Below, piece by piece: positions 7,666-23,534 of a stretch of DNA of 64,000 bases. A program made the position numbers and the translations under genes. Origin of the DNA: Pseudothermotoga thermarum DSM 5069 (GTDB lineage: Bacteria; Thermotogota; Thermotogae; Thermotogales; DSM-5069); NCBI RefSeq assembly GCF_000217815.1, contig NC_015707.1:1228014-1292013 (forward strand), written 5' to 3'. The notes below the pieces were generated by a model that was not told the DNA's origin, searched no databases, and saw only the letters and a program-made list of their open reading frames with translations. Position 1 is the first letter of the stretch. The number at the start of each line of letters is the position of its first letter.

Positions 7666-8412
7666 ATGAGAAAATACGGTCAGCATTTTTTGAAGGATGA
7701 GAAGCTTGGGAAAAAATTCATAGAGCTTTTAAAGCTAAAACCAGGTCAAAGCGTTGTGGAAATAGGTCCTGGAACTGGGGCTTTGACCAAATTGTTGATC
7801 GAAGAAGGGTGCAGAGTTTTGGCATTTGAAATAGATGAGGAGTTGGCTGAAAAATTACAATCAAGCTTGAAAAGTGAATTGTTAGAAGTAAGAGTTAAAG
7901 ACTTTTTGAGAGTGGAAAAGGAGGAAATAAATGGTATAAACCTTTGCGTTGGAAGTATTCCATATCAAAATTCCCTTGAAATAGTTTTGAAAATATGCCT
8001 TCTTGGATTTGAAAAAGCTGCCTTGATCGTGCAGAAAGAATTTGCACAAAAGTTAATGGCTTTGCCTGGAGACAGAAGATACACTTTTGTATCCGCACTC
8101 GTTCAAAGCATTTACGCGGTGAAAGTGGTTTTTGACATACCTCGTTGGGCTTTTTCTCCTCCTCCAAAGGTAACATCAAGTGCTTTGATCATGGAGAAAA
8201 TCAGACAAATACAGGATCTGCCAAGGTATATAAGGTTTTTAAGACAGTTGTTCACAACCCCAAACAAACTTTTGAAAAACTCCGTGGAAATTTTTGATCT
8301 GGATGAAAAGTTTTTGAACAAAAGAGTTAGGCAGCTTTCTAGTGAAGAATTAATCTACCTTTATGGGAAGTGGTTAAATGTTGAGACAGGATCTTTTGGA
8401 AATGGTACTTGA
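7666..8412 (+). CDS. rsmA: 16S rRNA adenine dimethyltransferase RsmA (KsgA)
   Basis: Dimethylates two adjacent adenines in helix 45 of 16S rRNA, a late step of small-subunit assembly. The 248-aa protein starts with the family hallmark [11 protein letters not shown]. It continues with the SAM-binding motif [15 protein letters not shown] and the acidic loop [13 protein letters not shown]-terminal helical domain includes [17 protein letters not shown]. Motif IV, normally NLPY, reads SIPYQ here, a notable change at the target-base pocket. The frame is open upstream to 7534, but homology begins at ATG 7666. It overlaps the next gene by 35 bases. Confidence 0.88.
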
Positions 8413-10084
8413 TTCGATAATTGAGGGAGTAATAATTGTCGACAAGCAAGCAAGGGTGATTTACATCAACAAGCAAGCTTGCTTGCTTTTAGGAGTTGAT
8501 CAAAATCAAGTTTTAAATCGTTACGTTGTCGATGTGATACCAAATACCAGGCTTCACATAGTTGTTCAAACCGGGGTTCCTGAGTTCGATAGATTACAAG
8601 AGATCGGCTCCACAAAGATCATAACAAGCCGTGTGCCCATAAGGGACAAAAACGGTGAAGTCATAGCTGCTGCAGCTATTTTCAGGGATGTTACCAGCGT
8701 TCAAAAGATGGCTGAGGAAGTTACCAACTTAAAAGAAATCGAGGCCACGCTAAAAGCGATAATAGAATCCACAAGCGATGCCATATCTGTAGCCGATGCG
8801 GAGGGTAGAATTGTTCTTGTAAACAGTGCTTACACAAAGATCACCGGTTTTACAGCCCAAGAAGTTATAGGAAAGCCAGCAACCGTTGACATAGCTGAGG
8901 GAGAAAGTATGCACATAAAAGTCGCACAAACAAAACAACCGATATACGGAGCTCGTCTTCTTGTAGGTCCAACAAAGAAAGAAGTGATTGTAAACGTCAC
9001 ACCCCTTTTCGTCAAAGGCCAGTTCAAAGGAAGTGTTGCCGTCATACACGATGTTTCAGAAATAATGAGATTAACCAGGGAACTTGAAGAGGTAAAACGC
9101 TTGATAAGAAGAATGGGTGCAAAATACACCTTTGAAGACATCGTGGCTGTCAGCGAAAAGATGAAGGTTGCTTTGACGCAAGCCATGAAGGTTGCTCCAA
9201 CACCTGCGACGGTTCTTTTAAGAGGAGAAAGTGGCACAGGAAAAGAGCTTTTTGCACACGCTATACACAATGCTAGCGACCGAAAAGATAAACCTTTTAT
9301 CAGCGTCAACTGCGCAGCCATACCTGAATCGATTTTCGAATCCGAACTTTTTGGATACACCGCAGGAGCTTTCACGGGAGCTAGACGCGAGGGGAAAAAA
9401 GGTCTACTTGAAGAGGCAAACCACGGAACTATCTTTTTCGACGAAATAGGAAAAATGCCTCTTTCGGTTCAATCGAAATTGTTAAGATTCATTGAAAGCA
9501 AGGAGATTGTTCCAATTGGTGATACTAAACCTATCAAGGTGGACGTTAGGATAATAGCTTCGACAAACATGAATTTGGAAAAGATGGTTCAGGATGGTTC
9601 CTTCCTTCCGGATTTGTATTTCAGATTGAACGTTTTTCCGATTTTTCTTCCACCGCTCAGAGAAAGGAAGGAGGATATACCGCTGCTGGTTCAAAGGATA
9701 ATAAGGAAACTCAACCAGGAGTACGGAAGAACAGTGGAAGGAATTTCACCGGATGCACTTCACAAACTTTTGAATTACGACTGGCCCGGAAACGTTCGAG
9801 AACTTGAAAACGTCATTGGAAGGGCAATGATAAACATGGAACCTGATGAAAAATACATAAGAGCTCACCATCTTCCGCCTTTGAGAATCTCTTTTGCCAC
9901 AGCCGAGGTTTCAAAAATAGGCGATTTAAGGCAATTGGTTCGTGAGTACGAAAAAGGGTTAATAGCAAAAGCACTTGAAGAAAGTAATTGGAACGTACAG
10001 GAGGCTGCAAAAATACTTGGTTTGAGTGTTAGAACACTTTATTATAAAATGAAAATCTTGAATGTAAAAAGGAAAAGCAATTGA
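8378..10084 (+). CDS. Sigma-54-dependent activator with two PAS domains
   Basis: A 568-aa enhancer-binding protein. Two PAS sensor domains lie at about residues 5-110 and 120-225. The AAA+ domain (about 250-480) has Walker [16 protein letters not shown], the sigma-54 contact loop GAFTGA inside [15 protein letters not shown], Walker [12 protein letters not shown] and the arginine-finger region [17 protein letters not shown] Fis-type helix-turn-helix ends the protein ([20 protein letters not shown]). The intact GAFTGA implies a sigma-54 in the genome. The PAS pair suggests an intracellular ligand. Position just before a TetR-type regulator and the acyl-CoA gene set makes those genes the likely targets (inference). 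Start ATG 8378 overlaps rsmA. Confidence 0.92.
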
Positions 10085-10093
10085 GCAGGTGAG

Positions 10094-11311
10094 ATGAACT
10101 TGAGAAGAAAACCAACACGGTCTGATGGCAAAAGAACTTTACAAAATCTTTTGAATTCAGCGTTGAAACTTTTTGCACTCTATGGTTATCACGGTGTATC
10201 AACACCGATGATAGCAAAAAAAGCCAACGTCAAAACTGCCACGTTTTATCAGTACTTCACGGATAAAGACGCTATCTACAAAAAGCTCCTTTCCAAAGCT
10301 ATTTTTTTATTTGAAAACAACATGAAACGTGTGGAAGGCAAATTGCTTGAAGATAGACTCAGAAAATTTGTTGAAAATTACCTTTTGTTTTTTGCCGAAA
10401 ATCCCGAATATTACAGAATCCTGCACGAAGCTGTGTACCTTAAAAAGAGAGTTTTTGAAAAAATTCAGAAGATACTTGATTCCACGGTAAATCAGATATG
10501 TCAGATTGATGATCCCATAGATCAAATGGTTTTACGTTGGTTTATCACAGGTCCAACAAGGTTTATTGCCATTTACAACTCGCTGAATTCAAACTACAAA
10601 GTTGATGAAAAAGTTGTCGAAGAAATTATCGATTTCACTTTGAATGGAATAGATCCAGACAACCATGAAGTGATGGATGAGGTTTTCAAAATAGATGTTA
10701 AACCTATAGCACTTGAAACTGCCACAACAAGAATGAAAATTCTACAAGCTGCCGAAAAACTTTTCGGAAGTCGAGGTTACAAAAACACTCAAGTGAGCGA
10801 TATAGCAAAAGCAGCTAGGGTTGCCAGTGGTACCGTCTACGTTTATTTCCAAAGCAAAGAACAAATTCTTGAAGAACTTGTGATGAGTACAAACAGAAAC
10901 TTGCGTTTAACGTTATCAACTGCGATCAAACGTTTTGAAGATCGCCGCGATGCCGAAATAGCTGGTTATTACACCTTTTTAAGGTTTTTCAGCCTTCACC
11001 GCAATATGTATTTGATAGTTCGTCAAGCAGAATTTTTCAATCCTGAAATTTCCCGAAATTATTACAGGAAAATTTTTGAAAGCTACCTCCCACCTTTGGA
11101 AAAGGCAATTTCAGCTGGTCAGTTTCGAAAAATTTCCCCTCAAACGCTTGCTCTAATTTTTATGGGAATAGGTCACTTCATGGGTGAGGATTTGGTCGTT
11201 AAAAACTACGCAAGCAATGTCGACGTGAAAGAACATCTCTTGAGGCTGTCGCTTTATATTTACAAAGGTTTGGCGGTGAAAGAAAAAGAAACATCAAGTT
11301 TGAAGAAGTAA
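10094..11311 (+). CDS. Tandem TetR-family regulator (two TetR units in one chain)
   Basis: A 405-aa protein about twice the usual TetR length, with two DNA-binding domains. The first (about residues 14-60) is LLNSALKLFALYGYHGVSTP followed by AKKANVKTATFYQYF. The second (about 212-258) is KILQAAEKLFGSRGYKNTQ followed by AKAARVASGTVYVYF. Each is followed by its own helical ligand/dimerisation region, so the protein looks like a fused TetR dimer. It begins 10 bases after the sigma-54 activator, with AGGTGAG before the ATG, and it precedes the acyl-CoA cluster. TetR regulators of this type often sense acyl-CoAs; that link is inference from the neighbours. Confidence 0.9.
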   Translation: MNLRRKPTRSDGKRTLQNLLNSALKLFALYGYHGVSTPMIAKKANVKTATFYQYFTDKDAIYKKLLSKAIFLFENNMKRVEGKLLEDRLRKFVENYLLFFAENPEYYRILHEAVYLKKRVFEKIQKILDSTVNQICQIDDPIDQMVLRWFITGPTRFIAIYNSLNSNYKVDEKVVEEIIDFTLNGIDPDNHEVMDEVFKIDVKPIALETATTRMKILQAAEKLFGSRGYKNTQVSDIAKAARVASGTVYVYFQSKEQILEELVMSTNRNLRLTLSTAIKRFEDRRDAEIAGYYTFLRFFSLHRNMYLIVRQAEFFNPEISRNYYRKIFESYLPPLEKAISAGQFRKISPQTLALIFMGIGHFMGEDLVVKNYASNVDVKEHLLRLSLYIYKGLAVKEKETSSLKK

Positions 11312-11355
11312 AAGTAAGAATCTCCCCACATTTTTCCAAAGAAATCTTTCTTAAA

Positions 11356-11379
11356 TGCCATTTTTTGCCAAAAATGCCG
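11356..11379. promoter_or_regulatory. Three phased TGCC units upstream of the acyl-CoA cluster
   Basis: TGCCA at 11356-11360 and 11366-11370 and TGCCG at 11375-11379 sit 9-10 bases apart, i.e. on one DNA face, in the 157-base leader between the TetR-type gene and the first KAS III-like gene. This may be an activator or repressor site. No convincing -10/-35 or -24/-12 promoter was found in the same leader. Confidence 0.25.
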
Positions 11380-11468
11380 AAAAATCATCCTTGATTTTAA
11401 CGTGACCAAAATGTTAAGCTTTCAAGCGAATCAACTATCAGATTTTAGATTTAAAAAGAGGTGACTTG

Positions 11469-12500
11469 ATGAGGGATCACGTTGGGATATTATCAATAGG
11501 TACTTATCTTCCTTCGAGATTTCTAACTGCAAAGGAACTGGCTGAGCAAACAGGCATTCCTGAGCAAGTTATCGTGGAGAAGATGGGGATCAAGAAAAAA
11601 TATATCCCTGGTCCAAATGACACAACTAGTTTCATGGGTATAATGGCGGCAAGAGAAGCCATAAAAAGGGCAGAAATCGATCCAAAGGAAATCGATGTTG
11701 TTATATGGAATGGTGCACAACACAAAGATTACCCTTGCTGGCTTGCTTCAACAAAAGTTGCTTACGAAATTGGTGCGACAAAAGCCTGGACTTTCGACAT
11801 GGAAGCCATGTGTGGTTCAATGATTGTCGGGCTTCAAGTTGCGCGTTCGTTGATGCTTTCTGAAAAGGATATCAACACCGTGATACTTGTCAGTGGTTAT
11901 AGAAACGTGGATTTGGTGAACGCTAAGAATAAAGCCACATCATTCATGTTTGACATAGGAACAAGCGGCTCTGCGGCGATAATCAGAAAAAACCTTGGCA
12001 AAAATGTGATCTTGGGAATCTCGAATATAGTGGATGGATCTTTTGCGGAAGATTGCATAATACCAGTCGGAGGGACAAAAAAGTGGCCGATGGTTCCAGA
12101 AGATCTTGAAAATTATTTCTTCCAGATAAAGGATCCAGAAAGTTTCAAAGAAAGACTTTCCAGTGTCACTTTAAAGAATTTCTACTTTGTGATTGACGAT
12201 GCCCTTAGAAAAAGCAATTTGAGCAGGAAAGATATCGATTATCTTGCAATACTTCACTTCAAGCGTTCCGCACACTACGAAGTTCTCAAAGAACTTGGGT
12301 TGGATGAATCAAAGACTACTTATCTTGAAGAATACGGTCACATGGGCCAAAACGACCAAATATTCTCAATAGAAGAGGGATTGAAAAGCGGAAAAATCAA
12401 GGAAGGATCTGTTGTAGTTTTGGTAGGAGCAGGTGTGGGCTGGACGTGGAATGCAGCCGTTGTAAGATGGGGAAAAGCCGTTGAACCAACTTGTTGGTAA
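11469..12500 (+). CDS. KAS III-like condensing enzyme A (thiolase superfamily)
   Basis: A 343-aa protein of the FabH / KAS III type. The nucleophilic cysteine is Cys115 in DMEAMCGSMIVGL, the usual position. A His is present in AILHFKRSAHYEV, and the normal GNTS-type Asn region reads EYGHMGQNDQIF, with an Asn one step along. KAS III enzymes condense an acyl-CoA with malonyl-ACP. Here, beside a CoA-transferase, SDR and thiolase and away from fab genes, a role in CoA-linked chemistry (OleA-, HMG-CoA synthase- or keto-acyl-transfer-like) is more likely than fatty acid initiation. ATG 11469 follows AGAGGTGAC. The downstream CoA-transferase begins 15 bases later. Confidence 0.8.
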   Translation: MRDHVGILSIGTYLPSRFLTAKELAEQTGIPEQVIVEKMGIKKKYIPGPNDTTSFMGIMAAREAIKRAEIDPKEIDVVIWNGAQHKDYPCWLASTKVAYEIGATKAWTFDMEAMCGSMIVGLQVARSLMLSEKDINTVILVSGYRNVDLVNAKNKATSFMFDIGTSGSAAIIRKNLGKNVILGISNIVDGSFAEDCIIPVGGTKKWPMVPEDLENYFFQIKDPESFKERLSSVTLKNFYFVIDDALRKSNLSRKDIDYLAILHFKRSAHYEVLKELGLDESKTTYLEEYGHMGQNDQIFSIEEGLKSGKIKEGSVVVLVGAGVGWTWNAAVVRWGKAVEPTCW

Positions 12501-12515: not shown

Positions 12516-13820
12516 ATGGATTACAAGGACCTTTATAAATCCAAACTAACCGATATTGACTCGATTTTAAAGTTGGTACATTCCAACAGCACCGTTGTGG
12601 TAGGTATGACACCTTGTGAGCCTAAGCTTTTTCTTAGAAATCTTCACAAGGTAGCGGATCAAGTTGAAAACGTTACTGTATTCACCTGTTTGAACACAGA
12701 GCCTTATCCATTCTATCTAGACGAAAAATATTCAAAAGCTTTTACAAATGCCTCTTGGTATTTTGGCCCTTCCAACAGAGAAGCAGTCAAATCAGGTTAT
12801 GGAACGGTCAGCTATGTTCCAAACAATTTGCACCAGGCTGGAACGAATTTGCTCGAAAGCCGCTCGGTTGATTTGTTTGTTGGAGTTGCTTCACCCATGG
12901 ATAAAAATGGCTTTTTAACGTTATCAGTATCTGTTGTTTACGAGAAGGACGTTGTCGAAAAAGCGAAAAAGATTGTTCTTGAGGTAAACCCAAAGGCACC
13001 GAGAACTCATGGAGATACTCAGATACACATAAAAGATGTTGATTACATAGTAGAAGTTGATTACGATCTTCCAGAAGTCGAATTGATTGAACCTACAGAG
13101 GTTGAAGCAAAAATAGCTCAGCATATAAGTGAACTTGTGGAAGATGGTTCAACTTTGCAGCTTGGTATCGGTGGAATACCAAACGCTGTGGCAAAGTTTT
13201 TGATGAACAAACACGATATAGGTATTCACACAGAGATGTTCACCGAATCGATGATAGATCTATTCGAAGCTGGTGTGATAACGAACAAAAAGAAGTCTTT
13301 GTGGCCTGGAAAGTTTGTCTGTGCTTTCGCATTTGGAACCAAGAGAATGTACAGTTTTGTAGATGATAATCCTGCTGTTTTTTTCCTAAGAGGAAGGTAT
13401 GTCAACGATCCTTACGTTATAGCTCAAAATGAGAAGATGGTGAGTATAAACACCGCTTTGATGGTCGATTTAACTGGAAACGTCTGCTCGGAAGCTCTTG
13501 GAACCAATCATTACAGCGGTACAGGTGGACAACTTGATACTCACCGTGGGGCGGTGAAAAGCAAGGGTGGAAAAGGCATAATAGCACTAAGATCAACTGC
13601 AAAGGGTGGAACAGTTTCGACAATCGTGCCACTTCTTCCACTTGGTTCACCGGTAACTGTTCCAAGACAGGAGATTGACTACGTTGTTACCGAATACGGT
13701 GTGGCTTGGCTTAGGGGAAAAACTGTGCGAGAAAGAGCCGAAGCGCTTATATCAATTGCGCATCCAGATTTTAGGTCGTGGTTGATGGAGGAGGCCAGAA
13801 AGCTGGGATTAATTATTTAA
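12516..13820 (+). CDS. Acetyl-CoA hydrolase/transferase family (4-hydroxybutyrate/butyrate CoA-transferase-like)
   Basis: A 434-aa family I CoA-transferase of the AbfT/Cat1 type. These enzymes move CoA between acetyl-CoA and a carboxylic acid through a glutamyl-CoA thioester. The N-terminal half has FVGVASPMDKNGFLTLS and LEVNPKAPRTHGD. The C-terminal half has LQLGIGGIPNAVAKFL, the catalytic Glu (about residue 240) in IGIHTEMFTES, and GTGGQLDTHRGA. It probably activates the imported acid in this cluster at the expense of acetyl-CoA. AAAGGAGGTCTAGAGGG precedes the ATG. The exact acid substrate cannot be read from the sequence. Confidence 0.87.
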   Translation: MDYKDLYKSKLTDIDSILKLVHSNSTVVVGMTPCEPKLFLRNLHKVADQVENVTVFTCLNTEPYPFYLDEKYSKAFTNASWYFGPSNREAVKSGYGTVSYVPNNLHQAGTNLLESRSVDLFVGVASPMDKNGFLTLSVSVVYEKDVVEKAKKIVLEVNPKAPRTHGDTQIHIKDVDYIVEVDYDLPEVELIEPTEVEAKIAQHISELVEDGSTLQLGIGGIPNAVAKFLMNKHDIGIHTEMFTESMIDLFEAGVITNKKKSLWPGKFVCAFAFGTKRMYSFVDDNPAVFFLRGRYVNDPYVIAQNEKMVSINTALMVDLTGNVCSEALGTNHYSGTGGQLDTHRGAVKSKGGKGIIALRSTAKGGTVSTIVPLLPLGSPVTVPRQEIDYVVTEYGVAWLRGKTVRERAEALISIAHPDFRSWLMEEARKLGLII

Positions 13821-13870: not shown

Positions 13871-13887
13871 AGTTTATTAGATAAACT
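13871..13887. promoter_or_regulatory. Perfect 7-bp inverted repeat, candidate operator
   Basis: AGTTTAT-TAG-ATAAACT lies in the 160-base gap between the CoA-transferase and the SDR gene. The size and symmetry suit a TetR-type operator, and the cluster encodes a tandem TetR protein. It does not look like a terminator: the stem is AT-rich and no T-run follows. Confidence 0.4.
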
Positions 13888-13980
13888 CAAAAAGCACGAC
13901 ACGATTCAAAGATGATAAGATAGTTTTTGTCGAACGGGTGATTGAAAAAATTTAAAAAGTACAGAAAAGGGGTGAACAAA

Positions 13981-14727
13981 ATGAGGCTAGAAGGAAAAGT
14001 TTGTATCATCACAGGAGCGGCAAGTGGGATTGGTAAGGCGGCGTCACTTTTGTTTGCAAAAGAAGGTGCGGTGGTCTGTGCTTGCGATGTTTCGAAAGAA
14101 GCACTCGAAAATTTAGTTCAAGAGGCAAGTGGACTTGCCGGAAAGGTTGATCCATACGTTCTAGATGTCACAAACCGCGAACAAGTTTCCAAAGTCGTTG
14201 AGGAAATAGTCAACAAGTATGGAAAAATCGACGTTCTTGTCAACAACGCTGGTATAACAAGGGACGCTCTGCTTTTGAAAATGACCGAAGAAGAGTGGGA
14301 TGCAGTTATAAACGTCAATTTGAAAGGAGTTTTCAACATGACACAAGCAGTCGCACCCCACATGATCAAAGCCGGCAAAGGTTCAATAATAAACACATCT
14401 TCCGTCGTTGGTATATACGGCAACATAGGACAGACAAATTATGCTGCCACGAAAGCCGGTGTGATTGGAATGACAAAAACATGGGCGAAGGAACTTGCAA
14501 GAAAAGGAGCGCAAATAAGGGTTAACGCAGTTGCACCTGGTTTTATAAAAACACCAATGACCGAAAAGGTTCCAGAGAAAATCATCGAAGCCGTTTTGGC
14601 TAGAACACCACTTGCAAGGATGGGTACACCGGAAGAAGTTGCTTACGTTTACCTTTTCTTGGCAAGTGATGAATCATCTTACGTGACTGGTCAAGTCATA
14701 GGTGTGGACGGAGGACTTGTGATTTAA
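13981..14727 (+). CDS. SDR-family 3-hydroxyacyl-CoA / 3-oxoacyl reductase (FabG/PhaB type)
   Basis: A 248-aa classical short-chain dehydrogenase with all catalytic elements: cofactor motif TGAASGIG at residues 11-18, NNAG at 88-91, Ser about 140, Tyr154 and Lys158 in YAATK. The second beta strand ends in ...CACDVS. An Asp at this point (Asp36) normally binds the adenosine ribose hydroxyls and favours NAD(H) over NADP(H). That would suit oxidation of a 3-hydroxyacyl-CoA rather than fatty acid synthesis (inference). The frame is open from 13942, but ATG 13981 is preceded by AAAAGGGGTGA and matches the family start. It sits just upstream of the thiolase. Confidence 0.88.
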   Translation: MRLEGKVCIITGAASGIGKAASLLFAKEGAVVCACDVSKEALENLVQEASGLAGKVDPYVLDVTNREQVSKVVEEIVNKYGKIDVLVNNAGITRDALLLKMTEEEWDAVINVNLKGVFNMTQAVAPHMIKAGKGSIINTSSVVGIYGNIGQTNYAATKAGVIGMTKTWAKELARKGAQIRVNAVAPGFIKTPMTEKVPEKIIEAVLARTPLARMGTPEEVAYVYLFLASDESSYVTGQVIGVDGGLVI

Positions 14728-14758: not shown

Positions 14759-15967
14759 ATGAGAAAAGTTTACATAGTTGGTGCCAAAAGAACAGCGATA
14801 GGCACTTTTGGTGGTTCTTTGAAAGACGTACCAGCTGTTCAACTTGGTGTGGTGGCGGCCAAGGCGGCGATGGAACAAGCTGGTATAAAACCTGAGATGG
14901 TGGATGAAACGATTGTAGGTTGTATTCTTACAGCTGGACAAGGAATGGGACCTGGAAGGCAAGTTTCGATTTACTCAGGCATACCAGTTGAAAAACCAGC
15001 TTACACTGTGAACATGCTCTGTGGCTCTGGCATGAAAGCGCTCATGATCGGTGCCATAGATATCATGGTTGGAGAAGCTGAAATCGTACTTGCAGGTGGA
15101 ATTGAAAACATGTCTATGGCCCCGTATTTGCTGCCAAGAGCAAGGTTTGGATACAGGCTTGGAAATGGAGAGATCATCGACCACATGGTTTTTGATGGCT
15201 TAACAGATGCTTTCAACATGTACCACATGGGGATTACAGCCGAAAACCTTGCAGAAATGTACAAAATAACCAGAGAGGAGCAAGATCTGTTTGCTTACAA
15301 AAGCCAAATGAAAGCCAAGAAGGCTATTGAAACAGGTAGGTTCAAAGACGAAATAGTTGCAGTGGTGATAAAAGACAAAAAAGGCGACAAAGTTTTCGAT
15401 ACCGATGAACATCCAAGGTTTGACACAACATTGGAAGCCTTAGCCAAGCTCAAACCTGTTTTTAAACCAGATGGGACAATAACTGCTGGCAACGCGTCTG
15501 GGATAAACGACGGTGCTTCGATGACCGTTTTGGCAAGTGAGGATGCTGTGAAAAAGTATGGGTTAAAACCGCTTGCAGAAGTGATTTCCTTTGCGCAACA
15601 CGGAGTAGATCCAAAGATAATGGGTATAGGGCCTGTTGGAGCTATAAGAAAAGCTTTGGAAAAGGCGAAATTGAATCTTAAAGAAGATATAGCATTAGTT
15701 GAGCTGAACGAAGCTTTTGCTGCGCAAAGTTTAGCAGTTTTGAAGGAGTTGAAGAAGGAGCATGGTATCGATGACGATTGGATAGAGGAACGAGTGAATG
15801 TGAATGGTGGGGCGATCGCTTTAGGACATCCGATAGGAGCAAGTGGAAATAGAATAATAGTCACTCTTTTGTACGAAATGAAAAAAAGACAAGTTGAATT
15901 TGGTTTGGCAAGCTTGTGCATAGGCGGTGGTATGGGTACTGCGGTGATAATAAGAAATGTTGAATAA
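14759..15967 (+). CDS. Acetyl-CoA C-acetyltransferase (thiolase)
   Basis: A 402-aa degradative/biosynthetic thiolase. The nucleophilic Cys88 is in VNMLCGSGMKA, the His loop is GGAIALGHPIGASGNRI, and the second Cys lies in the C-terminal SLCIGGGMGTAVII. The reaction is 3-ketoacyl-CoA plus CoA to acyl-CoA plus acetyl-CoA, or the reverse condensation of two acetyl-CoA. After the SDR gene, it would accept the 3-ketoacyl-CoA made there. AGAGGTG lies before the ATG. The spacing of 31 bases to the SDR gene and the short gap to the binding-protein gene indicate one operon. Confidence 0.93.
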   Translation: MRKVYIVGAKRTAIGTFGGSLKDVPAVQLGVVAAKAAMEQAGIKPEMVDETIVGCILTAGQGMGPGRQVSIYSGIPVEKPAYTVNMLCGSGMKALMIGAIDIMVGEAEIVLAGGIENMSMAPYLLPRARFGYRLGNGEIIDHMVFDGLTDAFNMYHMGITAENLAEMYKITREEQDLFAYKSQMKAKKAIETGRFKDEIVAVVIKDKKGDKVFDTDEHPRFDTTLEALAKLKPVFKPDGTITAGNASGINDGASMTVLASEDAVKKYGLKPLAEVISFAQHGVDPKIMGIGPVGAIRKALEKAKLNLKEDIALVELNEAFAAQSLAVLKELKKEHGIDDDWIEERVNVNGGAIALGHPIGASGNRIIVTLLYEMKKRQVEFGLASLCIGGGMGTAVIIRNVE

Positions 15968-16005
15968 CGTTGAATAACCAAAAATCTTTTAAAGGAGGTG
16001 TTTTT

Positions 16006-17166
16006 ATGAAGAGGTTTGCTGTGTTGGCTCTTGCTCTCATTGTTGCCTTGGTGTTTGCAGAAGTTGGAGTTTATCCAGACAAAATAGTTGTTGGAACCTT
16101 TCAGGCTCTTTCTGGTCCTTACGCAATAATAGGGCAAGAAATGTCAAAGGGAATGCAGGCTTATTTCAACTGGGTAAACAAAAACGGCGGTGTTTATGGT
16201 CGAAAAATTGAGCTCATAATTGCAGATGATCAACTCAATCCCGCAAAAACAGTTGTAGAGGTCAAAAGACTTGTTGAATCCGACAAGGTTTTCGCAATAG
16301 TTGGCGGACTTGGAACATATGGCTGTCTGGCTGTAATGGATTATCTGGAGCAAAACAAAGTACCGTTTGTTTACCAAGGTGCTGGAACCAGTCTTTTGGT
16401 CGTCCCACCGAAAAGGTACATCTTCGGCGTTCAACCAGATTACACACTCGAAGGACAACTTATAGCAAAATTCTTGGTTGAAAATCTTGGAAAAAAGAGA
16501 ATAGCAATTCTTTACATGTCCAACGACGTTGGTGAGGAAGGTAGAGCCGCTGTAAAACTCAGACTTGAAAAGTACAATATGAAACCCGTTCTCGAGATAG
16601 GTTATAACCCTGCTGAGACAGATTACAGTGCCTTGGCTGTGAGAGTTCTTGGCGCAAATCCAGATGCAATAGTTATATACGGCTTTATAACCGACACAAT
16701 CAGATGGATTAAAACACTTAGAGACTACGGCGTGAAAAGCGATATAGTCTCAACCTATGCCAACGCCGATCCTAGCTTCATCACACTTGGTGGAAAATAC
16801 GTTGAAGGCGTTTATCTGACAGGTTGGGTTCCACTTGCAACCCCAGATCGTCCGGAATTCTTCAGAGACTACCAAAGAGCTGTTGCTATATACCAAGAGA
16901 CCTTCCCAGATGCAGTGATGTCTTCTTATGCTGTGGCTGGCTTTATAGCAGCTGAGGTTTTCGTAGAAGGTTTGCTCAGGGCAGGTCCAGATCTTACAAG
17001 AGAAAAACTTGTCGAAGCTTTGGAAACCTTTAAAAACTGGAATGGAATTTTGGCAAAAGACATAACCTGGGGACCTGGTCAAAGACGTGGAAAAACAACC
17101 ATGTACTTCATGAGAATTGAAAACGGTATGTTTGTCGCAAAGACGGATTTGATAGGACTCGAATAA
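16006..17166 (+). CDS. livJ: LIV-type ABC transporter, substrate-binding protein
   Basis: A 386-aa periplasmic binding protein of the branched-chain amino acid (HAAT, type I) class. It has a signal peptide MKRFAVLALALIVALVFAEV with no lipobox Cys. The mature part opens with KIVVGTFQALSGPYAIIGQE and contains GVYGRKIELIIADDQLNPAK and FAIVGGLGTYGCLA, as usual for this family. Such proteins bind branched-chain amino acids but also aromatic and aliphatic acids, amides and urea. Neighbouring CoA enzymes point to a carboxylate or its ester (inference). ATG 16006 has AAAGGAGGTG nine bases upstream; the frame is open earlier but without SD. A hairpin follows the gene. Confidence 0.93.
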   Translation: MKRFAVLALALIVALVFAEVGVYPDKIVVGTFQALSGPYAIIGQEMSKGMQAYFNWVNKNGGVYGRKIELIIADDQLNPAKTVVEVKRLVESDKVFAIVGGLGTYGCLAVMDYLEQNKVPFVYQGAGTSLLVVPPKRYIFGVQPDYTLEGQLIAKFLVENLGKKRIAILYMSNDVGEEGRAAVKLRLEKYNMKPVLEIGYNPAETDYSALAVRVLGANPDAIVIYGFITDTIRWIKTLRDYGVKSDIVSTYANADPSFITLGGKYVEGVYLTGWVPLATPDRPEFFRDYQRAVAIYQETFPDAVMSSYAVAGFIAAEVFVEGLLRAGPDLTREKLVEALETFKNWNGILAKDITWGPGQRRGKTTMYFMRIENGMFVAKTDLIGLE

Positions 17167-17170
17167 TAAG

Positions 17171-17195
17171 GCTGGGGGCTACGCCCCCGGCTTTT
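17171..17195 (+). terminator. Attenuating hairpin between livJ and livG
   Basis: GCTGGGGGC (17171-17179), loop TAC, GCCCCCGGC (17183-17191) forms a 9-bp stem with one G-U pair, followed by TTTTG. The short T-run suggests partial termination, giving more binding protein than transporter. Confidence 0.7.
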
Positions 17196-17211
17196 GTGGG
17201 GGTTGTTGGCT

Positions 17212-17976
17212 TTGCTTGAGATAAAAAACCTCACAGTAAAGTTTGGTGGTTTAACTGCTGTTGACAACTTATCGATGGAAGTTAAAAAAGGTACGATTCA
17301 TTCTTTGATCGGTCCAAACGGTGCCGGCAAGACCACTGTTTTCAACGCCATAACAGGTGTTGTCAAACCGTTTTCTGGACAAATTTTGCTCGATGGACAA
17401 GATCTGACGAAGTTAAGTCCACACAAGATAGTAGAGCATAAGGTTAGTAGAACTTTTCAAAACGTTGTGGTTTTCAAGTACATGTCGGTCTTGGAAAATC
17501 TCTACATAGGATATCATTCCAAATTACATATCGGAATTCTAGACGAGGTGCTTTCGACGAAGCGAATGCATTTGAAAACCGGCGAGATGTATTTCAAAGC
17601 CTTGAAAATAGCAGATCTTCTTGGGCTTAAAAGTAGGCTTTTGAGTTATGCGGGATCCATACCTTTTTTCCACCAAAAACTGGTTGAAATTGGAAGAGCT
17701 TTGATGAGCGATCCAAAAATTCTTCTTCTCGACGAGCCAGCGGCAGGATTAACAGACACTGAGACAGAAATTATGATTCAACTTATAAAAGCGATCAGAG
17801 ATGAGCTTGGAATAACAATTTTACTTGTAGAACACGACATGAGAGTTGTTATGAACATATCCGACGTTGTCACTGTGATGGATTTTGGAAGAAAAATAGC
17901 CGAAGGAAAGCCAGAAGAAGTGAAAAATGATCCTGCCGTTATAAGGGCTTATTTGGGAGAGATGGAAAGTGCTTGA
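17212..17976 (+). CDS. livG: LIV-type ABC transporter ATPase LivG
   Basis: One of the two ATPases of the importer, cytoplasmic and membrane-associated. Walker A is GPNGAGKTTVFNAI, Walker B ILLLDEPAAGL, switch His in LLVEHDMRVV. The signature segment, LPYGxQR-like in most LivG proteins, reads IPFFHQKLVEIGRAL, so the invariant glycine is replaced by Phe or His. Start is uncertain: TTG 17212 gives MLEIKNLTVKFGG, lies nine bases after GGGGG and matches the family. Open frame extends to TTG 17194 inside the hairpin. The 3' end overlaps livF by eight bases. Confidence 0.92.
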   Translation: MLEIKNLTVKFGGLTAVDNLSMEVKKGTIHSLIGPNGAGKTTVFNAITGVVKPFSGQILLDGQDLTKLSPHKIVEHKVSRTFQNVVVFKYMSVLENLYIGYHSKLHIGILDEVLSTKRMHLKTGEMYFKALKIADLLGLKSRLLSYAGSIPFFHQKLVEIGRALMSDPKILLLDEPAAGLTDTETEIMIQLIKAIRDELGITILLVEHDMRVVMNISDVVTVMDFGRKIAEGKPEEVKNDPAVIRAYLGEMESA

Positions 17977-18667
17977 AGTGCGAAATATTACGGTTCAGTA
18001 TGGTCCGGTTGTTGCCGTTAAAGATGTTTCAATGGTGGTAAGGCCTTCAAGTATAACTGTTCTTTTGGGTGCAAACGGGGCCGGAAAAACGTCAACGCTG
18101 ATGGCCATAGCAGGTTTAAACAGAGTTTCCTCAGGACAGATAATTTTTGACGGTGAAAGAATAGACAAGCTTCCCGCTTACGAAATTGTGAAAAGAGGTT
18201 TGGTGCTTTGTCCAGAAAGCAAACTTGTTTTTCACAAAATGACCGTCATGGAGAATTTGAAGGTAGGTGCATACACAAGGAAAGACGATGTTTCCGAGGA
18301 ACTCGATTTTGTTTTCCAGCTCTTCCCAAGATTAAAAGAACGTGCAAAGCAATTGGCTGGAACGCTTTCTGGTGGAGAAAGGCAAATGCTTGTGATAGCT
18401 CGATCGTTAATGGCAAAACCAAAGTGTATCCTTTTTGACGAACCATCTATGGGATTGGCTCCAAACTTGGTCGCGGAGATCATGAAGGTCATACAAAAAA
18501 TAAAAGAAACTGGGAAGACAATTCTTTTGGTTGAGCAAAATGCTTACAGTGCTCTTAAAATAGCGGATTACGCGTACATCATGAAAAATGGTCGAATAGT
18601 TTTCGAAGGTTATCCAAAAGATCTTTTGAAAGACAAAACAATAGTTGAAAAATACCTGGGAGGCTGA
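17969..18667 (+). CDS. livF: LIV-type ABC transporter ATPase LivF
   Basis: Second ATPase of the importer, 232 aa. Walker A GANGAGKTSTLMAI, canonical signature LSGGERQMLVIARSL, Walker B CILFDEPSMGLAP, switch His position occupied by Gln in LVEQNA, which is usual in LivF. GTG start at 17969 inside the end of livG implies coupled translation. The protein ends 4 bases before livH. Confidence 0.95.
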   Translation: MLEVRNITVQYGPVVAVKDVSMVVRPSSITVLLGANGAGKTSTLMAIAGLNRVSSGQIIFDGERIDKLPAYEIVKRGLVLCPESKLVFHKMTVMENLKVGAYTRKDDVSEELDFVFQLFPRLKERAKQLAGTLSGGERQMLVIARSLMAKPKCILFDEPSMGLAPNLVAEIMKVIQKIKETGKTILLVEQNAYSALKIADYAYIMKNGRIVFEGYPKDLLKDKTIVEKYLGG

Positions 18668-18671
18668 ATTG

Positions 18672-19550
18672 ATGTTTTTGAATCGGTTGATTTTGGGCTT
18701 ATCGGTTGGATCAGTCTACTCTCTAGTTGCGCTGGGTATAGTCACGATATATAAAACAACTGGTTTGATGAACTTTGCCTTTGGAAACATGGCAATGTTC
18801 ATGACCTACGTTGCCTATACCTTCGTTAGCCTTAGGATCAATCCAATAATCGCTTTGCTATTGGTGTTACCGATTTCCGCTGTTTTTGGCTATGCAGTGG
18901 AGCGATTCACCTTAAGACCAATAAGACATCTTTCTCACGCTTCAATGCTTATAGTTACTCTTGGGTTGTTGATGATCCTTGAAGGGCTTTCAACTCAAAT
19001 TTGGGGGACTCAATACAAAGGTTTTCCGGAACTTGTTAGTGGTACACCAATCATATTGAGGGGAGTCTTTGGAATAGTTGTTTTTCGAAGACAAGATATA
19101 CTGATCTTTTCAATTCTCGGTTTGGTAAGTTTGATTTTCTATCTGCTTTTAAATCACACCAAACTTGGAATTTCCATAAAGGCTGTTTCGGAAAACGAAA
19201 CGGCGGCTCAGATCGTTGGTATAAATCCCGGAAAAACCTTTTCTTGGGCTTGGATGATCGGTACGATGCTTGGCACAGTGGTCGCAATCCTAGCAGCTCC
19301 GAGAACCTATGTTTCGCCAACAATGATGTTGTTTTATCAAATACAAGGTTTTACAGCCGCAGTCTTAGGGGGATTTGATAGTTTCCTTGGAGCCGTGGTT
19401 GGAGGACTTGCCCTCGGTGTCATTGAAAATCTGATTGGCGGATACATAGGAAACGAATTTAAAACTTCTTTCTCTCTGCTCTTGATAATTGCCATTCTGC
19501 TAATACGTCCAGAAGGTTTCTTTGGAAGTCGCGAGATCAGGAGAGTGTAG
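18672..19550 (+). CDS. livH: LIV-type ABC transporter permease LivH
   Basis: A 292-aa integral membrane permease. The N-terminal LILGLSVGSVYSLVALG, the amphipathic ISIKAVSENETAAQIVGIN coupling-helix region and the C-terminal RPEGFFGSREIRRV are all characteristic of LivH. About eight hydrophobic segments are visible. It pairs with LivM to form the channel. ATG 18672 with GGGAGGC upstream is preferred over an earlier in-frame ATG at 18645 that lies inside livF. Confidence 0.94.
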   Translation: MFLNRLILGLSVGSVYSLVALGIVTIYKTTGLMNFAFGNMAMFMTYVAYTFVSLRINPIIALLLVLPISAVFGYAVERFTLRPIRHLSHASMLIVTLGLLMILEGLSTQIWGTQYKGFPELVSGTPIILRGVFGIVVFRRQDILIFSILGLVSLIFYLLLNHTKLGISIKAVSENETAAQIVGINPGKTFSWAWMIGTMLGTVVAILAAPRTYVSPTMMLFYQIQGFTAAVLGGFDSFLGAVVGGLALGVIENLIGGYIGNEFKTSFSLLLIIAILLIRPEGFFGSREIRRV

Positions 19551-19553
19551 AGC

Positions 19554-20777
19554 ATGATGAAGTTGTTGACTTTGTTGCTGCTCGTGCTTTTGCCATTTGT
19601 ATTTGGAACCAGCAAATTTATCCTCACAATCTTGAATTTGACGATGATCCATGCCATAGCAGCTGTGGGGTTGAATTTGATAATGGGTTACACCGGGCAA
19701 GTTTCAATAGGACATGCTGCATTTATGAGCATCGGTGCTTATACCTCGGCTTTGCTGGCGATGAAACTTTCTATTCCACTTGCACTCAGTATTCCAATTG
19801 CCGTTTTAGTCTCTGGAATCTTTGGTTTTATCTTTGGCTTTCCATCTCTAAGACTAACAGGTTTTTACCTTGCCATAACAACGATGGGATTTGCAGTTGC
19901 CGTTGAACAGCTACTTGGAGCATGGAAAGATTTAACCAAAGGTCACATTGGTCTTAGAGGCGTACCAAAACTTGGTTCAGAATTGTTCAACTATTATGTC
20001 ATACTCGCTGTTGTCGTGTTGTGCTTTTATGCGTTTACAAAACTTACAAGTCACAAAACCGGTAGAGCCTTGAAAGCCATAAGGGAAAATCCGTTGGTTG
20101 CGAGAGTTTTTGGAATAAATCTGACCAAGTACAAGTTGCTTGCTTTTACCGTTGGTTCTGCTTTTGCAGGTCTGGCCGGTGCTTTGTACGCTCACGAGAT
20201 AGGATATCTTGCCCCTTCAGTTTTTGGACTTGGTAAATCTTTGGAACTACTTGCAATAGTCGTTGTAGGTGGAATGGGTTTAGCAGTTGGTCCGTTTTTT
20301 GGATCGGTGGTTTACACTGTTTTGCCATTTTTGTTCAGCAGAAGCGGTATATCGCTTTCGATAATCTTTGGAATCATTTTGATAGCAACCGTTCTTTTCA
20401 TGCCCAGAGGAATTGCATATTATGCACAAAACTTTTGGCTCAAATACGGTGAACTTCCCGTGATATTTTTGAAGCGAAGAAAGAAGAGCAAGGAAGGATA
20501 TTTCGTTCAACTTCCTTTTGGAAAACTTCACTGTGTTGAAGAAGGACAAGGTGAAAAAGTTTTGCTTTGCATACACGGTAATTTTGGATCTTGGCGATGG
20601 TTCAAACCGTTGATGGAAGAACTGAAAGACAGATACAGATTTTTAGCCGTCGATCTGCCAAATTTTGGGGATTCTTCAAGGACAAAATCTTCGCTTGAAT
20701 TTTACGCTGAGGCCGTAAAGCAATGTTGGACCTGTCAACTTAAGAAGGAAAATTGCACTAATAAGAAATGGAAATAG
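19554..20777 (+). pseudogene. livM: LivM permease fused to alpha/beta hydrolase; 5' part, interrupted by IS copy 1
   Basis: The 5' part of a split gene. Residues 1 to about 300 are a full LivM permease: GYTGQVSIGHAAFMSIGAY, FPSLRLTGFYLAITTMG, AIRENPLVARVFGIN, and GGMGLAVGPFFGS near the end. A basic linker LKRRKKSKEG at the cytoplasmic face follows, then the start of an alpha/beta hydrolase (VLLCIHGNFGSWRWFKP, oxyanion-hole HGNFG). At 20728 an insertion ends the natural frame and 16 foreign codons follow to 20777. Removing the insertion and one 7-base duplicate restores a single 568-aa frame. The permease half may still work alone. LivM normally stops after the last membrane helix, so the fusion itself is unusual. 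Confidence 0.9.
20721..20727. repeat. Target-site duplication, left copy (CAATGTT)
   Basis: CAATGTT occurs directly before the insertion and again at 21220-21226 directly after it, a clean 7-base target duplication. Confidence 0.85.
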
Positions 20778-21219
20778 CCACTTCACTATGTCCTCATCCC
20801 TCCTTTTGTACCATAACCTGCTTATGTTAAAACGCCTCAGCCTGTACCTTGTTATCCCTATCACACTCTCAACAAGGCTTCTTTCCCCAAACCTCATTTA
20901 TGTTCACCTTCATCTCGTCTATAGCTACTACTGCATTGCCTTCTATCTTCTCAGCAAATATCTCTTCTTTCATTCTTGCCCACCATTTCCTCAAGGCTTC
21001 ATGACTGACTCCAATTATGGCTGCTGCCTTCCTTAATGCAAGTTCATACTTTCGCCTCATGTGGAACTCTTTGTCTTTGAAAAAGGTTTGGTATAATTTG
21101 GTATAGGTACTGGGTGATATTTGTTGTTGTAACTTTCATCTTTACGGGAACCTCCTTTCGGTGAGAAGAGTTGGTTCCCGTTTATTTTATCGTATTTCCC
21201 GGCTTAAGTTGACACCTCC
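20728..21219 (-). mobile_element. MITE-like internally deleted IS (copy 1)
   Basis: 492 bases bounded by inverted repeats: left end GGACCTGTCAACTTAAG, right end the complement of GGAGGTGTCAACTTAAG. Inside, on the minus strand, are the IS leader with its CGGGAACC/GGTTCCCG hairpin, a 31-aa frame, then an overlapping frame MRRKYELALRKAAAIIGVSH that runs to DEMKVNINEV. From there it jumps straight into the C-terminal transposase remnant beginning in GERSLVESVIGITRYRL. Compared with the copy at 32289, the middle is missing between two GAGGTT words. The element therefore cannot make a DDE transposase and would need another copy to move. Related protein fragments resemble IS6/IS240-type transposases, but the family call is tentative. 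Confidence 0.85.
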
Positions 21220-21226
21220 CAATGTT
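21220..21226. repeat. Target-site duplication, right copy (CAATGTT)
   Basis: Second copy of the 7-base duplicate flanking IS copy 1. Joining here to the base after 20720 restores the hydrolase reading frame through QCLDQMNLKKVVVIGHSLGG. Confidence 0.85.
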
Positions 21227-21759
21227 TGGACCAGATGAATCTTAAAAAAGTTGTGGTAATTGGACATTCCCTAGGTGGAGCCGTTGCGATGTTGTTTGCC
21301 TTGAAATACCCAGAAATGGTTGAAAAACTGATACTTGTAGCCCCATGCCCAGTTGATGGTTTACCAACTCCCACAGAAAACCTGCCGTACCTTGCGTTGT
21401 ACAAAACCAGCAGAACGCTTTTGAAACGTTCCATAAGAGGACTTTTGCCCACGCTGAAAGATAAAAAATTCTTGGAAGCACTTGCCGACGACGCTTTGAA
21501 GATGAACCCAGACAGTATTTATCCGCATGTCGAAGAGCTTGGTAAATTCAACGTCGTTGACCTTGTAAAAAACAATTTTGTTCCCACAATAATTGTTTTT
21601 GGCGATATGGATCCACTTCTAACCTACTCGCAGATGGAAAAGACAGCCAAAACTTTAGGTGCAAAGCTTGCGGTTTTAAACGGTGTAGGTCATACTCCTT
21701 TTGTGGAAAAAACAGATTTGTTCGTGCAAATAATTGAAGATTTTCTGGGAGGTGCATAA
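21227..21759 (+). pseudogene. Alpha/beta hydrolase, 3' part of the livM fusion gene
   Basis: The remainder of the interrupted fusion protein. It has the nucleophile elbow GHSLGGAVAMLFALKYP, an acid residue in VFGDMDPLLTY and the catalytic His in NGVGHTPFVEK. Together with the HGNFG segment before the insertion, the hydrolase was complete. The family includes esterases, lactonases and C-C hydrolases, so specificity cannot be read. No good start codon with SD follows the insertion, and a product lacking the first strands and oxyanion loop would be inactive. The next gene's SD (GGGAGGTG) lies in its last codons. Confidence 0.88.
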
Positions 21760-21760
21760 A

Positions 21761-22744
21761 GTGAAGTACGCCAAGATAATTTCCTCGGGAATTTACGTGC
21801 CAAAAAGAAAAATGACCAACAAGGAATTTGAGGAATTGACGCACTTTCAAATCGATCCTTACTTTTCCGAACAAATAGGTATCACGCATCGCTACATTTC
21901 CGATGAAACTGAAACGCCTACCTATATGGCAGCCGAAGCGGCAAAGAAGGCTTTGGCAAGGATATCGATGAAACCTGAGGAGATCGATTTGATAATCGTT
22001 GGAACTGATACGCCTGAAGCTATTTCACCACCAGATGCTGCAAGAGTTCAGTACCTTATAGGAGCAAGTAAAGCTGAACCTTTGGCGTTCAATGTGAACG
22101 CATCGTGTGCCAACGGAGCTCTTCTTTTGGATATAGCCTCAAGGTACATAGCCTTGGGAGACTACAGGAATGTGCTTGTAATAGGTGTTTATGCTATGAC
22201 GAAATTTCTCAGCTGGAAATACTCCTGGGAAGCTCTCTTTTCCGATGGAGCGGGTGCTTTGATCCTAACAGCCGACGATAAACCTGGATATCTTGGAAGC
22301 GTTTCAAGATGCGATGGAAGTTGGTGGTACAACTGGGGTATTTACATGGGTGCTGGAACGATGAATTTGAATGGCTTTGAAAGAGGTCTTCACAAACTCG
22401 ATCTTCGCGCAGCTTATCCAGCTACCGTTAACGAAGAAGGTTGGCCTATTTTGATAAACAAGTTGATGGAAAAGTGCAATTTCACCAAGGAAGAAATTGG
22501 TATGATTTTCTTCACTCAAGTTCGCAAGAAAACCATAATTACTGTTATGGAAAAACTACAGCTTCCTGTTGAAAAAGCACACATGGTTATGGACAAGTTT
22601 GGTTACACTGGATCAGCTTGTGTTTACATGGCTTACGATGATGCTTTCGAACAGGGGAAACTGAAGGATATGGAAGGAAAAGTCATTATCTTTCTAACAT
22701 CGGGAGTTGGATTTCAACAGGTTGCAGTTGCTTTTAGGGGGTGA
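21761..22744 (+). CDS. KAS III-like protein B, catalytic His and Asn replaced
   Basis: A 327-aa FabH-type fold with the nucleophilic Cys116 in NVNASCANGALLLD and the usual FSDGAGALILTAD segment. Of the KAS III triad Cys-His-Asn, only Cys is clear. The PHQAN-like site reads MIFFTQVRKKTI and the GNTSAAS-like site reads KFGYTGSACVYM. It therefore cannot use the standard decarboxylating mechanism, but could form an acyl-enzyme and transfer the acyl group, or act as partner of KAS III-like protein A. GTG 21761 follows GGGAGGTGCATAAA and is preferred over the open frame back to 21734. It sits between two alpha/beta hydrolase genes. Confidence 0.8.
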   Translation: MKYAKIISSGIYVPKRKMTNKEFEELTHFQIDPYFSEQIGITHRYISDETETPTYMAAEAAKKALARISMKPEEIDLIIVGTDTPEAISPPDAARVQYLIGASKAEPLAFNVNASCANGALLLDIASRYIALGDYRNVLVIGVYAMTKFLSWKYSWEALFSDGAGALILTADDKPGYLGSVSRCDGSWWYNWGIYMGAGTMNLNGFERGLHKLDLRAAYPATVNEEGWPILINKLMEKCNFTKEEIGMIFFTQVRKKTIITVMEKLQLPVEKAHMVMDKFGYTGSACVYMAYDDAFEQGKLKDMEGKVIIFLTSGVGFQQVAVAFRG

Positions 22745-22748
22745 AATT

Positions 22749-23534
22749 TTGTTCAAAACCTCCGATGGCGTGTTGATTGATTATCAAGTCATAGGTGATT
22801 CACCTGAAGCAATCGTATTTCTCAACGGTGTATTCATGCACTACAACAGTTGGTTGTTCGCCGTGGAAAATCTCAAACGAGATTTCAAAATCGTCTTGCA
22901 CAACTTTCGATGTCAATGGACCTCACAAAATGCGCCGTGTTCTTTCGACAGGCATGTTGAAGATCTGAAAGAATTGCTTAAATATCTTGGTATAGATAAT
23001 GCTCACCTTGTTGGAACTTCATATGGCGGAGAAGTTGCGATGCATTTTGCCATAAAATACCCCGCTTTTGTCAAAACTCTCGTCGTTATAACTGCTGCTG
23101 CAAGGATAAACGAAGCTTTGAAATATCGCGCCATAAGGTGGAAAGAAGGTGCAAAGACAAAAGATCCTCACAAATTTGTGCTCAGTTGGATAGACGATGT
23201 GTACAGTGATTTCTTTTTGGATAGCCACGAAAATCTTTTGGAAAACATTGCAGAAAGAATGAAAAACTTTAACTACGATGGAGCTGTTATGCTTTTGGAC
23301 AGCTTTTTGCAGATGCAAAAAGAACCACTGTTGCCAAAATTGCATGGAATAAAAGCTCCTACAACAATTGTTTCTGCGCAGTTCGACAGGACGAAACCAC
23401 CTTATTTTTCCCAAGAAATATCCAACGCTATACCAAATTCCAGACACATCATGATACCAAACTGCGGCCATGCAGCCGTTGTCGAAAAACCTCAAGAAGT
23501 TTTGAGCGTGATCAAAGCGGCGATATCAGGATGA
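22749..23534 (+). CDS. Alpha/beta hydrolase
   Basis: A 261-aa single-domain hydrolase: oxyanion region VFLNGVFMHYNSW, nucleophile elbow LVGTSYGGEVAMHFAIKYP, acid in VSAQFDRTKPPYF and catalytic His in IPNCGHAAVVEKP. It lacks the usual HG motif (LNGV instead), as in some lactonases and dehalogenase-like members. Sequence is clearly different from the hydrolase fused to LivM, so the two are not a recent duplication. TTG 22749, five bases after the KAS III-like B stop, follows AGGGGGTG; the frame is open further upstream without a better start. Last gene of the cluster; a hairpin overlaps its stop. Confidence 0.85.
   Translation: MFKTSDGVLIDYQVIGDSPEAIVFLNGVFMHYNSWLFAVENLKRDFKIVLHNFRCQWTSQNAPCSFDRHVEDLKELLKYLGIDNAHLVGTSYGGEVAMHFAIKYPAFVKTLVVITAAARINEALKYRAIRWKEGAKTKDPHKFVLSWIDDVYSDFFLDSHENLLENIAERMKNFNYDGAVMLLDSFLQMQKEPLLPKLHGIKAPTTIVSAQFDRTKPPYFSQEISNAIPNSRHIMIPNCGHAAVVEKPQEVLSVIKAAISG

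Follow-up and report, generated by a model that had tools for sequence, protein, structure and literature searches.

Genes and features of the locus

The window, that is, the whole 64,000-nucleotide stretch of Pseudothermotoga thermarum DSM 5069 that was analysed, carries a gene for a double TetR regulator and, around it, the following features, all on the forward strand.

8378..10084, +, PAS/sigma-54 activator, just upstream of the double TetR; adjoins it in genera g1 and g4 alone
10094..11311, +, double TetR regulator, 405 aa; intact open reading frame, TetR_N domain found twice, AlphaFold2 model
10121..10645, +, N half (residues ~10-184, limits from model helices): fast-evolving HTH and ligand-type domain, both CoA-contacting arginines lost
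10703..11278, +, C half (residues ~204-395): FadRSa-like TetR matching 6el2, R271 and R284 kept
11427..11444, +, candidate operator CGAATCAACTATCAGATT (consensus TGAATCAnnTnTCAnATT), 18 bp, non-palindromic; conserved leader element
11466..12500, +, KAS III-like synthase (NCBIfam PRK06840), the gene that directly follows the candidate operator; conserved neighbour
12516..13820, +, butyryl-CoA:acetate CoA-transferase-like enzyme, scoring under the curated cut-off of its family; conserved neighbour
13942..14727, +, FabG-type short-chain dehydrogenase (annotation); putative target in trans in family f3
14759..15967, +, acetyl-CoA acetyltransferase (thiolase, annotation); putative target in trans in family f3
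15970..20777, +, LivKGFHM-type ABC transporter genes (annotation), the last reading frame running into an alpha/beta hydrolase gene that is interrupted
21734..23534, +, second KAS III-like gene and an alpha/beta hydrolase (annotation)

The activator is perhaps co-transcribed with the double TetR. In 37 stretches, several of them short and showing only part of the gene set, the double TetR lies beside CoA-transferase, KAS III-like, FabG, thiolase and Liv-type ABC genes in varying order, and in the f3 loci it is the second KAS III that adjoins it. Liv-type transporter genes are also found near all six doubles outside the class, several of which show only a partial set. Neither an acyl-CoA dehydrogenase nor an enoyl-CoA hydratase came to notice in the annotation of the genes around it in the window, so that these genes would serve the uptake of a short-chain acid, a 3-hydroxy or 3-keto acid as a guess, and its conversion to acetyl-CoA rather than full beta-oxidation. 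An 18-bit, partial PADLOC match was taken as noise.

Downstream of livM, an insertion of about 490 bp (20735-21222) interrupts the alpha/beta hydrolase gene. Its ends are inverted repeats (20728-20753 and 21194-21219, 81%) with near-identical flanks resembling a target duplication. BLAST found 58 matches to it spread over the whole genome, so it seems to be a shortened member of an insertion sequence family.

The double TetR gene and its distribution

TetR repressors are typically symmetric dimers that bind palindromes. The reading frame at 10094-11311 runs from ATG to stop over 405 aa with zero internal stops, and the Pfam domain TetR_N (PF00440) was found twice in it, well above the curated cut-off (115.6 bits versus 24, E 8e-34), in such a way that the chain has two TetR domains, as Mce3R does. 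When profiles of the two halves were aligned, they were co-linear over 180 columns, covering HTH and ligand domain, with 19% identity. The two HTH motifs and two ligand-domain-sized regions of the original prediction are thus confirmed.

Near full-length matches in one frame were detected in 67 of the 103 genomes of the phylum, and partial pieces in four more (G046, G057, G089, G102), which rules out an assembly error or a strain oddity. This class-wide conservation also answers the two concerns raised together with the original prediction, a stop between the halves in other strains and an assembly error joining two genes. The apparent internal stops that were examined turned out to be terminal ones (residue 392 of 393 in L022, 395 of 396 in L026), and a non-systematic look at the 37 stretches laid out showed no halves as separate adjacent genes. 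Further double TetRs, proposed earlier as something to look for, also exist outside the phylum: a scan of genome contigs gave doubles at 9 of the 80 loci listed, three in Thermotogae (L068, L069, L083) and the others in a Spirochaetes MAG (L070), Deltaproteobacteria (L071, L072, L073, L075) and a Firmicutes MAG (L080). The double TetR is real, old and widespread, with Mce3R as a precedent.

Predicted fold and the two halves

The AlphaFold2 model of the monomer, built from ten sequences with no templates, reached a pLDDT of 89.2 and a pTM of 0.87. Its best match among solved structures was Mce3R (9b7y), aligned over model residues 8-391, which takes in the N and the C half (Z 26.3, 352 residues, rmsd 4.6; Foldseek E 4e-10), whereas the best single-domain chain, FadRSa, matched only the C half (Z 18.4). 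The Firmicutes double L080 gave a similar model from nine sequences (pLDDT 85.2, pTM 0.82) with an Mce3R match of Z 25.6 over 350 residues, rmsd 6.3. The structure prediction suggested earlier thus yields a single-chain pseudo-dimer with the predicted omega fold of Mce3R, in which the two HTHs would lie on the same side, and the match over both halves gives this architecture one solved precedent.

The halves differ in what they have kept. The C half resembles FadRSa of Sulfolobus acidocaldarius (6el2, E 3e-25; 141 bits in a second comparison), a protein that, according to its description (PDB 6el2/6en8; PMC6449355), represses fatty acid genes, is released by acyl-CoA and contacts the CoA phosphate through arginines 73 and 86. 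These residues map to R271 and R284 of the double TetR. With L080 set apart, 26 of 27 C halves and 68 of 71 single-domain relatives have Arg at both positions, as against none of 28 N halves; in L080 neither half keeps the two together. Position 250, in the recognition helix, is polar in all 28 N halves, while it is V, L, I or T in 26/27 C halves and L, I or V in 71/71 singles. Without the CoA-binding arginines and with a changed recognition helix, the N half would be mainly a second DNA reader and scaffold. The original prediction had allowed for two different ligands; this is not supported, as the arginines that contact CoA in FadRSa persist in the C half only, although a different ligand for the N half is possible.

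A candidate operator with one main arm

The consensus TGAATCAnnTnTCAnATT emerged from reading the leader between regulator and KAS III gene in genomes of the same family, and the copy in the window has one mismatch. An asymmetric operator had been foreseen for the fused pair, and the leader 11312-11468 had been named as a place to look; the non-palindromic 18-bp element at 11427-11444 lies inside it and lends this idea support in silico, a non-palindromic site being also what Mce3R binds. The palindrome proposed at 13871-13887 (AGTTTAT-N3-ATAAACT) does exist, but it was rejected as an operator: it occurs in none of 33 related stretches (L031-L063), in such a way that the window is the only one of the 34 stretches scanned to have it.

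Across the 103 genomes, the exact pattern was found in 28 of 71 genomes with a double TetR versus 0 of 32 without (p 6e-6), with 51 sites in total versus 3 for the reversed control pattern. A stricter count, leaving out G013, G093 and G101, whose only sites (among the exact sites L149 and L160-L164) do not resemble regulon promoters, and G102, whose site was unexamined, gave 24/71 (p 3e-5); both p values are optimistic, since the genomes are related. The exact site is absent from 43 of the 71 fusion genomes, including that of the window with its one mismatch, and almost entirely from families f9 and f11 (for example G072-G100), which mostly carry the double TetR and in which the operator may have diverged. 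All six doubles outside the class have a site with at most 3 mismatches beside the gene. Two further exact operator-like sites, L152 (~3955) and L161 (~4101), are intergenic and lie beside genes unrelated to the regulon of the window; they are possibly further targets or chance.

The asymmetry was assessed on sites selected by TGAATCA only, of which 12,281 bases of intergenic DNA contained 24 distinct ones. Conservation extended to the right (T10 in 22, T12 in 22, C13 in 21, A14 in 23, T18 in 22), and the left flank showed none comparable. Among 55 located sites, pair 5/10 was complementary in none and pair 6/9 in 5%, counts that are partly circular because these sites were picked by likeness to the consensus. 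The single-domain relatives, by contrast with these one-armed sites, have a 21-bp palindrome, TGAnAnnTGAwTCAnnTnTCA, upstream of their own genes (at most 2 mismatches, 26/71 versus 1/256 control windows), whose left TGA the doubles keep at only 2 of their 55 sites within the class and at 2 of 8 elsewhere. A strict one-arm claim had to be softened, given that a degenerate left arm was detected in 17 of the 55 sites versus 4.2 (sd 2.0) in shuffles, chiefly at thiolase promoters; judged from the sequences, the reduction of the operator to one arm would thus be strong but incomplete. The asymmetric core with at most 1 mismatch also occurs in 31 of 71 single relatives. This led us to drop a first framing, TGAAT-N4-ATTCA for singles versus TGAAT-N4-TnTCA for doubles, since singles match the second form (31/71) and not just the first (18/71, at most 1 mismatch); the palindrome centred on TGAWTCA fits them better.

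One single TetR, in a Bacillales MAG (L077, 7956-8588), has a perfect 21-bp palindrome upstream and precedes acyl-CoA synthetase-like, MaoC-like and KAS III-like genes, these names being read from the translations.

Promoters and putative distant targets

In family f3 the element is reversed in orientation and lies upstream of the operon of the regulator, overlapping a TATAAT in 11/11 loci, and it is frequently doubled there, with a spacing of 23 bp. A promoter scan near the operator of the window gave matches no more frequent than in shuffles and none at 11380-11430, so the promoter reading is drawn from the relatives in f3. In these f3 genomes thiolase and FabG are far from the regulator, and the exact site is found directly upstream of the pair in 9/11; the remaining two fusion genomes have it with 1 and 2 mismatches, which makes 11/11 at no more than 2. 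By contrast, none of 13 genomes with the thiolase and without the double TetR, six of them in f3, has such a site (at most 2 mismatches) in the 400 bases upstream. In the genome of the window itself a search with at most 2 mismatches gave 41 matches versus 13 for the control, too many for naming further targets, and at most 1 mismatch left a single site.

Proposed mechanism and alternatives

These observations are probably best explained by an asymmetric single-chain repressor, derived from a tandem-duplicated FadRSa-like TetR and acting on the one-armed operator of short-chain acid operons. The ancestor would have been an acyl-CoA-responsive regulator, and the two copies are predicted to pack as the subunits of an ordinary TetR dimer do, in such a way that the C half would keep the ancestral acyl-CoA pocket and the N half would serve mainly as second DNA reader and scaffold. 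The chain is predicted to bind TGAATCAnnTnTCAnATT over the -10 box and the start of the operons that would take up and convert short-chain acids (CoA-transferase, KAS III, FabG, thiolase, Liv-type ABC) and to repress them, release being brought about, we infer, by the acyl-CoA made from the substrate. From the changed helix, our guess is that the C half sits on TGAAT and the N half on the TnTCAnATT arm. The operator, the regulon and the division of labour are new predictions of the present analysis, and binding and ligand remain predicted throughout.

Same-strand pairs of sites exactly 23 bp apart occur 15 times, every other same-strand spacing being found once (L049-L064, L165, L166), which suggests, from site spacing, two chains bound side by side. 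Beyond this, two chains could assemble, through N-N and C-C pairs or as joined omega units like those of Mce3R, and bridge two operators in a DNA loop, such as the one preceding the regulator gene and the one preceding KAS III. Besides the tandem pairs, such looping would agree with sites flanking the regulator gene on both sides in 8 of 9 same-family stretches (L031-L039, at most 3 mismatches) and with Mce3R, described in PMC11667970 as a dimer of omega units for which the authors suggested looping. N-N and C-C pairing, however, would favour palindromic sites, the genome of the window has a single site at no more than 1 mismatch, and the predicted structure shows a single chain; we regard looping as possible but unlikely.

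That the repressor integrates two signals, its N half binding a second, different ligand, appears improbable to us. The N ligand domain is full-sized and, in the model, well ordered, and the N halves have near-invariant residues of their own (LHEAEY, WFxxGPxRF). It is nevertheless the least conserved part of the protein (mean pairwise identity 0.26, and 0.44 in the HTH, versus 0.43 and 0.56 in the C half), and the loss of both arginines also argues against a second sensor.

It is highly improbable that the operator belongs to another regulator and is linked only indirectly to the double TetR, be it another TetR, as other phyla have single relatives whose sites are similar, or the sigma-54 activator, which adjoins the double TetR in the nearest genera but is a neighbour in g1 and g4 only, since site and double TetR co-occur over genomes and over phyla and related sites precede the own genes of the single TetR relatives.

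Origin of the fusion

A quick tree of halves and singles was built with 93 of 128 sequences, including 36 of 71 singles. Leaving L080 aside, the N halves fall on one side of a branch with support 97.8, and the C halves do likewise, but weakly (67.7). The halves of L080 are the nearest relatives of each other (support 99) and adjoin the single TetR L077. This pairing disfavours a single fusion event for all doubles, yet a topology forcing all N halves together, with L080 included, was not rejected (p-AU 0.072). On these sequences, the tree suggests one old fusion and a recent, independent one in L080.

A wider scenario, to which we give about even chances, is that the duplication of one acyl-CoA sensor created an ancient single-chain heterodimer with divided labour, while its operator went from the 21-bp palindrome to the one-armed form. 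One copy (C) would sense and read the old half-site; the other (N) would be blind to ligand and read a changed half-site, and the one-armed site would have become the regulon switch for much of a bacterial class. The same duplication and fusion would have taken place two more times, each independently, among the Firmicutes (the lineage of L080) and in mycobacteria (Mce3R).

Relation to known systems and meaning

Mce3R of Mycobacterium tuberculosis (PDB 9b7y) is, according to PMC11667970, a single-chain omega on a non-palindromic site, forms a homodimer of omega units through helix 15, and is termed by its authors the first structure of a double TFR. The double TetR shares with it one chain of ~405 aa with two TetR domains, a fold matched over both halves, genes of lipid or acyl metabolism and, as predicted here, a non-palindromic operator; the single ligand-binding domain described for Mce3R (PMC11667970) is another likeness. 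They differ in regulon and phylum, with 14% identity over the structural alignment, and the best stretch of the sequence profile on Mce3R, 7-75, comprises the HTH only, so a fusion event shared with Mce3R is no more than possible. The operators of Mce3R are described there as 25-27 bp (PMC11667970), versus the 18-bp candidate presented here, and a CoA pocket is not established for it.

Among solved structures, FadRSa is nearest to the C half in sequence as well as in fold, with the CoA-contacting arginines common to both. It differs from the double TetR in being, according to PMC6449355, a homodimer of ~196 aa with a 16-bp dyad-symmetric motif and no fused partner. No publication on the present double TetR group was found in the literature searched, where Mce3R was the only natural double TetR. 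The engineered single-chain TetR, scTetR, also has two TetR units per chain and allows unequal halves; it is man-made from one tetracycline repressor, rather than a duplicate that arose in nature and has an operator to itself.

The double TetRs described here are a second and much broader group beyond Mce3R, with persisting single-domain relatives and a conserved regulon. Since the predicted operator occurs in palindromic and one-armed forms, the question of how a symmetric protein-DNA pair becomes asymmetric is directly testable. The protein is also a single-chain repressor, probably heat-stable, for which a candidate site has been defined. For the Thermotogae, the analysis offers a regulon prediction for short-chain acid metabolism. 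If the wider scenario is true, duplication plus fusion would be a path by which evolution has more than once turned symmetric recognition of DNA into an asymmetric one.
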